NCBI GenBank assembly: GCA_017309115.1
Contig: JAFLEF010000046.1
Coordinates: forward strand, 1 to 60,990
Direction of reading: 5' to 3'
Length of the DNA: 60,990 bases
DNA from: Verrucomicrobiota bacterium
GTDB taxonomy: Bacteria > Verrucomicrobiota > Verrucomicrobiia > Limisphaerales > UBA9464
The translations under genes were made by a program, and so were the position numbers. The notes beneath the pieces are model-generated. The model made no database searches. It was given only the letters and a program-made list of their open reading frames with translations, and was not told the origin of the DNA. Positions within the stretch are counted from its first letter, which is position 1; each line of letters starts with the position of its first letter. Of the stretch, positions 51,529 through 53,370 are shown piece after piece.

Positions 51529-52551
51529 TCAGTACGCCGCTTGGGCGCCCTTGATGGAACGTTTCTGCATCCACGGCATCAACGAGCGAAGCTTGGCTCC
51601 GGTCTTTTCGATCGGGTGCTTTTCTCCGGCCTTGAGCAGGGCGTTGTACTTCTTGTAGCCGCCCTTGTATTCGGCGACCCATTCCTTGGCGAACTTGCCG
51701 TTCTGAATGTCCTTCAGGGCGGCCTTCATGCGCTTCTTGACCGACGCGTCGATGATCTTCGGTCCGACCGAGACATCGCCCCACTTGGCCGTCTCGGAAA
51801 TCGAGAACCGCATGCCGGCGATGCCAGCTTCGTTCATGAGGTCGACGATCAACTTGAGCTCGTGGAGGCACTCGAAGTAGGCCATTTCGGGCGAGTAACC
51901 GGCTTCCACCAGGGTTTCGAAGCCGGCCTGAACCAGCGCGCTGGCGCCACCGCACAGGACAGTCTGCTCGCCGAACAAGTCGGTCTCAGTTTCTTCCTTG
52001 AAGGTGGTTTCGAGGACCCCGGCGCGGGTGCCGCCGATGCCTTTGGCCCAGGCCAGGGCGATCTTCTTCGCGTCCTTGCCGGGGTTTTGGTAAATGGCGA
52101 TCAAGCTCGGGACACCTTTGCCTTCGGTGTACTGCCGACGGACGATGTGTCCGGGACCTTTGGGGGCGACCAGGATCACGTTCACATCCTTGGGCGGAAC
52201 GATGGTCTTGTAGTGGATCGAGAAACCATGGCTGAAGAGGAGGGTCTTCCCCTTGGACAGGTTCGGCGCGATGTCCTTCTCGTAGGCGGCCGGCTGCTTG
52301 GTGTCAGGCAGGGCGACCATGATGACGTCGGCGCGCTTCACCGCTTCCGCAGTGGGGACGACTTCGAATCCCTTTTCGCGGGCGACGGCGATCGACTTCG
52401 AACCTTCGTAAAGGCCGATGATGACGCTGCAGCCGCTTTCCTTGAGGTTGAGGGCGTGGGCGTGGCCCTGGGAGCCGAAGCCGAGCACGGCCAGGGTTTT
52501 GCCTTTGAACACGCCGAGATCGGCGTCTTTGTCGGTATAGACTTTTGCCAT
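51529..52551 (-). CDS. ilvC: Ketol-acid reductoisomerase
   Basis: A 340-residue class I (short) reductoisomerase in valine, isoleucine and leucine synthesis; NADPH-dependent isomerisation and reduction of acetolactate. Rossmann motif [19 protein letters not shown], the [13 protein letters not shown] segment, metal-binding [12 protein letters not shown] and [12 protein letters not shown] (Glu/Asp ligands) are all present. The gene follows ilvN by 91 bp and both lie behind the leader-peptide attenuator. Cytoplasmic. Confidence 0.97.
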
Positions 52552-52642: not shown

Positions 52643-53116
52643 TCAGGCGCGGGGCAGGGCGACTTGGCCGGTGCGGGTCAGATCGAGAATGCCGAAACCC
52701 TTCATGAGGGTGATGAACTTCTCGATCTTGCCTTCGCCACCGGTGATTTCGATGGTCAGGTTGTCGGGTTGCACATCCACGACCTTGGCGCGGAAGAGTT
52801 CGGCCATTTGGGCCACTTCGGCGCGATTGTCGGAGCCGGTGGCGACCTTGAGCAGGACCAGTTCCCGGTCGATGTAATCGCCTTGGCGGTAATCGATCAC
52901 CTTGACGACGTCGATGAGTTTGCCGAGTTGCTTGACGATCTGTTCGACCGTCGCGTCGTCGCCCCGGGTGACGATGGTCATCCGCGACAGCGAGGAGTCG
53001 TGGGTGGGAGCGACGTTGAGCGAGTCGATGTTGTAGCCGCGGCCGGAGAAGAGACCGGCGACGCGAGTGAGCACGCCGAACTTGTTTTCGACCAGAATGG
53101 AGATGGTATGACGCAT
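52643..53116 (-). CDS. ilvN: Acetolactate synthase regulatory subunit
   Basis: A 157-residue regulatory subunit. N-terminal ACT domain opens with [24 protein letters not shown] (split as [10 protein letters not shown]...), continues with [11 protein letters not shown] and contains the valine-binding loop; the C-terminal half matches the ALS_ss_C domain ([27 protein letters not shown]). It binds valine and feeds back on the catalytic subunit IlvB, whose gene is not in this window. Same operon as ilvC. Confidence 0.93.
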
Positions 53117-53193: not shown

Positions 53194-53255
53194 AGCCAAA
53201 ACCCGCGGCGGACCGCGGGCGACCTGGGAGCCGGTGTAGCATGCCGCAGGTCGCC
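53194..53255 (-). promoter_or_regulatory. ilv attenuator: antiterminator hairpin and terminator
   Basis: Right after the leader peptide stop the minus strand has GGCGACCTG, a 20-nt loop and CAGGTCGCC (perfect 9-bp stem, 53218-53255). The 3' arm overlaps by two bases the stem of a second hairpin, CCCGCGG/CCGCGGG (53202-53219), followed by TTTTGGCTTTC. A ribosome stalled at the valine codons would leave the first hairpin free to form; one at the stop codon would cover it and favour the terminator. A weak promoter match (TTGACC, 18 nt, TAGCGT) lies just upstream of the leader start. Confidence 0.75.
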
Positions 53256-53256
53256 G

Positions 53257-53307
53257 TCAGTCCGCGAGGACGACGACGACTACTACGGGATCCAACACCG
53301 GAATCAT
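53257..53307 (-). CDS. ilv leader peptide (attenuator, six consecutive Val codons)
   Basis: A 16-codon frame MIPVLDPVVVVVVLAD with a TGA stop. Eight of 16 codons are Val or Ile and six Val codons (GTA GTA GTC GTC GTC GTC) are consecutive, the pattern of ilv-type leader peptides that sense charged tRNA-Val. It lies about 140 bp upstream of ilvN and directly before two overlapping hairpins. No strong Shine-Dalgarno is visible. Length, composition and position support the role; expression is inferred. Confidence 0.75.
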   Translation of the reverse strand: MIPVLDPVVVVVVLAD

Positions 53308-53370
53308 CGGCGGGAACGCTAAAGGTCCTGGTTTGCGCCGGTCAATGGATTTTGGCCCTGACCCTCACCC

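Follow-up and report, generated by a model that had tools for sequence, protein, structure and literature searches.

The best-known cases of classical attenuation come from Proteobacteria and Actinobacteria. In E. coli, the leaders of ilvB (ivbL) and ilvGMEDA (ilvL) carry Val, Leu and Ile control codons, follow the 1:2, 2:3, 3:4 pairing logic and end in an intrinsic terminator. Both leaders have a 5' UTR and a ribosome-binding site. Other leaders are built differently. According to the available parts of two papers, the C. glutamicum ilvBNC attenuator (ilvB-II motif) encodes a branched-chain amino acid (BCAA) leader peptide, is discussed as a leaderless mRNA and has GUA among its control codons (PMC11857589, PMC10272879). 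The available text of the former argues from mutants that the antiterminator lies next to the terminator and that the two contend for a GCC, which pairs either with GGC or with the 3' arm of the terminator (PMC11857589). The accessible excerpt of the latter also describes predicted BCAA leader peptides before ilvB in the ilvB-OMG and Leptospira ilvB motifs, every representative of the Leptospira motif having three or more Val codons in a row (PMC10272879). In Streptomyces lividans, the leader peptides LeuL1 and TrpL2 are transcribed leaderless; in the accessible portion of that report, LeuL1 has no typical Rho-independent terminator and TrpL2 is not followed by a uridine-rich stretch (PMC8079986).

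The window analysed here is the whole 60,990-nucleotide stretch from a Verrucomicrobiota bacterium of the order Limisphaerales. On its minus strand, a Val-rich short leader frame precedes ilvN and ilvC, and a predicted terminator-like stem with a T tract lies between the leader and the first gene. We consider this region, with a probability of about 0.89, to be a ribosome-mediated transcription attenuator under the control of charged tRNA-Val. Its features are as follows.

53340..53345, minus strand: -35-like hexamer TTGACC, read from the sequence and recurring in relatives
53316..53321, minus strand: -10-like hexamer TAGCGT, with an 18-nt spacer to the -35-like hexamer and 8 nt before the leader ATG
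53257..53307, minus strand: leader peptide MIPVLDPVVVVVVLAD with its stop codon, predicted near-leaderless; a Val-rich frame is also present in relatives
53269..53286, minus strand: six putative regulatory Val codons, GTA GTA GTC GTC GTC GTC, read from the sequence
53247..53265, minus strand: region 2, predicted antiterminator 5' arm, GCGGAC-TGA-C-GGCGACCTG (pair counts, state model)
53208..53226, minus strand: region 3, predicted antiterminator 3' arm, CAGGTCGCC (53226-53218) and GTCCGC (53213-53208) (pair counts, state model)
53198..53220, minus strand: terminator-like hairpin GCCCGCGG-TCCG-CCGCGGGT with TTTT (fold, consensus scan, pair counts)
52643..53116, minus strand: ilvN, acetolactate synthase small (regulatory) subunit (NCBIfam TIGR00119 and NF008864, over cut-off)
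51529..52551, minus strand: ilvC, ketol-acid reductoisomerase (NCBIfam TIGR00465 and NF004017, over cut-off)

The leader MIPVLDPVVVVVVLAD has 16 codons, from an ATG at 53307 to a TGA at 53259-53257, and contains the only run of five or more Val codons in the six frames of the window. A sigma-70 consensus scan found no promoter at the threshold that it sets; we read a promoter here because the promoter-like pair recurs in relatives. From the position of this pair, transcription would start at the leader ATG or 1-3 nt before it.

In the antiterminator-like hairpin, GGCGACCTG (53255-53247) pairs with CAGGTCGCC (53226-53218), and the last leader codons can additionally be used through pairing of GCGGAC with GTCCGC. 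The terminator-like stem is formed by CCCGCGG (53219-53213) and CCGCGGG (53208-53202) around the loop TCCG, followed by four consecutive T only (53201-53198). The two hairpins overlap by 2 nt, or by 3 nt if one includes a G-T pair at the foot of the terminator, and region 3 and the terminator base have CC in common. The predicted fold of the 118-nt leader has an energy of -64.4 kcal/mol (z -6.4; 0 of 200 shuffles as stable); in it, the Val codons pair with the sequence downstream of the stop codon and the terminator is present. Folded alone, the post-stop part does not stand out: its z is -1.5, and 15 of 200 shuffles were equally stable. A consensus terminator scan of 801 bases returned three terminator-like sites versus 0.5 expected, two of which are the leader hairpin. 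The ilvN start is 81 nt from this hairpin and outside the pairing.

The preliminary description had claimed a 16-codon leader with six consecutive Val codons followed by TGA, which is present on the minus strand as it said, and two overlapping hairpins, the second of terminator type with TTTT, which sequence, fold and consensus scan confirm. The near-leaderless start that it had called unusual has its counterpart in relatives, where a promoter-like pair also lies close to the predicted leader start.

For the comparison with relatives, the best 80 of 475 ilvN loci of named genomes were taken together with the window, giving 81 examined loci (the window and L031-L110, out of 110 loci). The other 29 loci (L002-L030) were left out; 26 of them share the 200 nt upstream with a used locus, and L013, L025 and L029 do not. 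The module script looked for two promoter-like words (-35 and -10), a start codon placed 3-13 nt past the second of them, then a frame 7-30 codons long with CCCG further downstream, and set no Val criterion. The promoter-like pair, near-leaderless leader and hairpin module was found in 50 of the 81 ilvN loci, and the script missed at least L069 (the contig ends) and L093 (found as L185). The -35-like word was TTGAC in 32 of the 50 module loci, TTGCC in 14 and another word in 4. The distance from the -10 to the start was 6-9 nt in 50 of 50 leaders and 7-10 nt in 42 of 46 further ones, the presence of a -10 being a search criterion in both sets. Examples of the leader frames are MFPVRNPEFVVVVLAD, MIPADFLVVSVVPPVRD, MTRIAVASLLVVVVPVIGG and MKIAARALVTLVVVVR. 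The closest named relative among the best 80 of 475, L031 (2349-2459), keeps the promoter, start and terminator and has a leader without Val (MIPTGKAGRFRPKG); the leader of L040 (MKPAVNDKVVRT) has three Val only. Since the sequences are related by descent, none of these recurrence counts represents independent events.

Some loci departed from this arrangement. The L031 leader may be a decaying or re-purposed attenuator. In 24 of 29 ilvN loci without the attenuator, a TTGAC lies at most 83 nt from the gene. A small GC hairpin with a T run abuts the ilvN ATG in several attenuator-less loci, some of them 25-30 nt from the expected transcription start; loci with such upstream ends are L057, L073, L075, L082, L083, L097, L099, L102 and L107.

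The covariance model R1, which spans the last three codons before the stop through to the T tract, rests on 45 of 47 leaders, with L031 and L040 left out. In its own genome it matched the window leader at E 1e-14, and the next match was at 0.21. In the family, 45 of 51 genomes matched at E 0.01. At E 0.001, R1 matched 109 of the 321 genomes of the order, 54 of the 155 of good quality and 48 of 118 genera; 212 of the 321 had no R1 match under these strict filters. We fetched 71 matches, comprising all 64 from outside the family and seven from within it (one seen in the family search only), five of the seven having been chosen as weak second matches. The ilvN gene was downstream of 65 of the 71 (63 of 64 non-family, 2 of 7 family). 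The six matches without ilvN scored 1.9e-4 to 8.8e-4 and the match in G148, which precedes ilvN, scored 3.0e-4; the E-values overlap with no clean separation, because G148 scores worse than two of the six. Across the phylum, nine of 387 sampled genomes had an R1 match, strong in the own genome alone and 1.4e-4 or weaker in the others, and none of the matches outside the order lay by ilvN or ilvB. A leader frame beside a promoter-like pair was assigned in 59 of the 65 R1 loci (L203 was skipped; L151, L165, L204, L206 and L214 were unassigned), and a -35-like word precedes all 59. After removal of L160, which is the same locus as L038 taken from a different start, from 47, 46 leaders were new to R1; the sets of 91, 92 and 94 leaders used below still contain both.

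The leaders are rich in Val, and in one frame only. In the 47 distinct leaders, Val accounts for 201 of 723 residues (27.8%) versus 2.1-3.4% in the other frames, and shuffling gave a mean of 53 and a maximum of 71 Val residues. The 46 leaders not used for R1 have 247 Val in 736 residues (33.6%) versus 1.7-2.0% in other frames, each with at least three; without the three codons inside R1, Val still makes up 184 of 598 (30.8%), and positions 3-5 before the stop are 80-89% Val. Five of the 47 have two Val only. The codon choice is also biased. GTA makes up 161 of 448 Val codons (36%) in 93 leaders and GTG 44 of 448, while among the 1751 Val codons of ilvN at the same loci GTA is 2.1% and GTG 46%. 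The strong use in the leaders of a codon that is rare in ilvN fits the idea that tRNAs which are rare or selectively uncharged would serve well as sensors.

Pairing was evaluated on two alignments, A1 (47 sequences) and A4 (92 sequences, 90 distinct). The A1 antiterminator has 12 pairs, the leader-end GGAC with GTCC and GCG(A/G)CCTG with CAGGTCGC. In these, 83.4% of cells are paired versus 34-49% in slid versions, and the covariation score is 0.226 versus 0.04-0.16 slid (3 of 500 shuffles as high); six pairs show double changes, a number equalled by one slid version. The A1 terminator is 89.2% paired versus 28-58% slid, with a score of 0.092 versus up to 0.099. On A4, the eight inner antiterminator pairs are 86.5% paired versus 23-50% slid and score 0.179 versus at most 0.087, a value that 27 of 500 shuffles reach; they have 10 double-changed cells, and three slid versions have more (20-27). 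The A4 terminator is 91.9% paired versus 27-55% slid, scores 0.131 (0 of 500 shuffles as high) and has 14 double-changed cells versus 5.7 in shuffles and at most 13 slid. RNAalifold on A1 returned six pairs and no double changes. Five core terminator pairs are nearly invariant. Covariation is weak because the stems hardly vary, and the alignments point to strongly kept pairing with modest support from covariation. When duplexes were swapped between leaders, the native antiterminator surpassed the majority of swapped ones in strength in 38 of 47 cases, the 1:2 pairing gave a weak result (33 of 47) and the terminator a flat one (24 of 47).

A run of 4-6 T occurs within 6-8 nt after the stem in 72 of 94 leaders, and 22 of 94 have no run of four T there. 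Of the 47 leaders, 11 end in GGGCTTCG in place of a T run and have fewer Val (for example MIPKREQVAVRVAPRG); these are L045, L048, L050, L053, L056, L060, L062, L063, L065, L067 and L071. Such leaders may terminate poorly or act otherwise.

The transcription start, termination, ribosome stalling and valine response that we infer for the window leader would combine as follows. Transcription would begin at or 1-3 nt before the leader ATG. When valine is plentiful, a ribosome at the TGA would cover GCGGAC-TGA-GGCGACCTG and leave the antiterminator 3' arm free, and the GC hairpin with its U tract would then halt RNA polymerase upstream of ilvN-ilvC. Under a shortage of charged tRNA-Val, the ribosome would stall on the GTA/GTC run and region 2 would be exposed, pairing with CAGGTCGCC...GTCCGC and taking bases of the terminator stem, and transcription would go on. 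With no ribosome, the Val codons would pair with region 2 and the terminator would form.

We computed equilibrium pairing in a state model from which the RNA was removed as far as 13 nt beyond the A site. The modelled probability of the window terminator was 1.00 with the ribosome at the stop, 0.00 with the ribosome stalled at Val and 1.00 without a ribosome. The inner-terminator version of the model scored 77 of 94 leaders, and a stem-base version scored 91 of 94 (two were skipped and one is without Val). In the stalled state, the inner terminator pairs of relatives fell below 0.5 in only 12 of 76; since these pairs mostly survive stalling, antitermination in relatives would have to act on the stem base or kinetically. 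The basal pair of the terminator, which adjoins the T tract, was modelled in 91 leaders and stood at 0.96 with the ribosome at the stop, 0.56 stalled and 0.93 without a ribosome. A drop of more than 0.2 on stalling occurred in 57 of 91 leaders and not in 34, and no leader showed a rise of that size. Shuffling the 14 nt that follow the stop reduced the mean drop from 0.40 to 0.10 and left 15 of 91 leaders with a drop above 0.2. A competing antiterminator exposed on stalling is thus predicted in the window and in part of the relatives (57 of 91).

The preliminary description had looked to relatives for the leader and hairpins before ilvN, with conserved Val runs and compensating stem changes. 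The leader and hairpins were found there (50 of 81 ilvN loci). A Val-rich frame recurs, but L031 has no Val and L040 three. Pairing is far above the slid controls, whereas double changes are modest and, for the antiterminator on A4, below three slid versions. Relatives, codon use and the state model support the leader-peptide attenuation that it had recognized from order and spacing; in the model, the switching is complete in the window and partial in relatives.

The evidence must also be weighed against other readings of the region. The leader might act on translation, or at both levels, through mRNA structure or stability and ilvN translation, with a hairpin that is not an efficient terminator. 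The short T tract of the window (four T), the 22 of 94 leaders without a run of four T and the 11 of 47 ending in GGGCTTCG would suit this proposal. However, in most leaders (72 of 94) a run of 4-6 T follows the terminator stem within 6-8 nt, the stem shows almost no variation in its five core pairs, and the window ilvN start, 81 nt past the hairpin, is outside the pairing; we regard an action on translation as improbable, though it is the strongest of these alternatives. A riboswitch or T-box-like RNA that senses a ligand or tRNA directly, with the short frame incidental, would also be a conserved structured RNA preceding a biosynthetic operon. Such an RNA is very hard to reconcile with the Val content of one frame and the codon use, which are kept while other parts of the leader vary, and the window has no Rfam match at gathering score; at E up to 10 there were two unrelated sub-threshold matches on the other strand, and loci L234, L178 and L214 had no match.

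The Val run itself might be a chance product or a slippage repeat, (GTC)n, before an ordinary terminator, as the four consecutive GTC codons of the window and the close relative L031, which has no Val there, could suggest. In 125 of 202 pairs of neighbouring leader Val codons the two codons differ, an argument against slippage, and the Val enrichment extends over many genera in one frame only. The comparative data already disfavour this reading, and we give it next to no weight. Attenuation by charged tRNA-Val remains the reading that we prefer.

The ilvB gene sits elsewhere in the same genome (G000:C90) and has a Val leader of its own, which differs in sequence from the ilvN leader.

G000:C90:48332-48426 (locus L234, 1240-1363): ilvB Val leader

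It reads MKRITSVVVLVVGGDTAAGTCCA, then ACCCACGGC...GCCGTGGGTTTTTT. A covariance model of the ilvB leader, R2, built from 18 sequences, matches 277 of 321 genomes of the order, 148 of 155 of good quality and 107 of 118 genera, with two or three matches in some genomes. All 20 of the fetched R2 matches from other families precede ilvB and have a Val-rich leader, and by eye 18 of 20 leaders end in A-x-G-x-C or one or a few residues after it. In the phylum sample of 387 genomes, 13 had an R2 match, strong in the own genome and one member of the order and 1.1e-6 or weaker in the others; none of the matches outside the order lay by ilvB or ilvN. The modelled ilvB terminator pair was at least 0.96 both at the stop and stalled at Val in 18 of 18 (mean 1.00 without a ribosome). 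Because this terminator stays formed in every modelled state, the guessed ilvB antiterminator is not supported. As a broader scheme, which we think rather unlikely as a whole, two different near-leaderless Val attenuators on the unlinked ilvN and ilvB genes of Limisphaerales might keep the subunits in step via charged tRNA-Val, the ilvN one having converged on the corynebacterial GCC swap and the ilvB one adding a nascent-peptide-dependent or purely kinetic step.

Other operons gave little. BCAA leaders before leuA-like genes were found in 1 of 30 cases, the weak candidate L274, all leuA matches being under the family cut-off. His leaders near hisG (0 of 24) and Trp leaders near trpE (1 of 24, doubtful) came from a scan that requires TTGAC and a GC-T tail and can miss leaders.

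Versions of the leader recur across an order of little-studied bacteria, and the textbook mechanism therefore appears to operate there too. The two order-wide RNA models provide a testable regulatory circuit for a phylum with few genetic tools. If the reading is true, transcription and translation would be closely coupled in these bacteria, from near-leaderless mRNA ends, and the genes for the acetolactate synthase subunits at two loci would answer the same signal.

The literature among the matches listed, from a search with subscription journals mostly outside it, contained no attenuator of this type from Verrucomicrobiota, in keeping with the earlier remark that none was known for Verrucomicrobia. 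The proposed mechanism is of a known kind; the available parts of the sources report leaderless leader peptides, and BCAA leaders upstream of ilvB, in Actinobacteria and other phyla (PMC8079986, PMC10272879). The spread is unusual, and one genome carries two different putative attenuators. Like ivbL and ilvL of E. coli, the window leader has putative BCAA control codons and, by prediction, the 1:2, 2:3, 3:4 logic and a terminator; unlike them, its start is predicted to be near-leaderless and Val dominates. The window gave no Rfam match that would link it to the ilvB-OMG or Leptospira motifs, among 4227 models that may not include these motifs. Unlike LeuL1 and TrpL2 of S. lividans, as the available part of their description presents them, it has a hairpin with a T tract, and its start is predicted to be leaderless-like. 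The arrangement in the window resembles that of C. glutamicum ilvBNC as given in the accessible text, where, as in the overlap of the window hairpins, GCC pairs with GGC; we would guess that this likeness reflects convergence. The C. glutamicum attenuator belongs to another phylum, and here the genes are ilvN-ilvC with ilvB elsewhere; by the same partial account, the window differs from it in its long Val run and in an antiterminator arm that starts from the stop codon.
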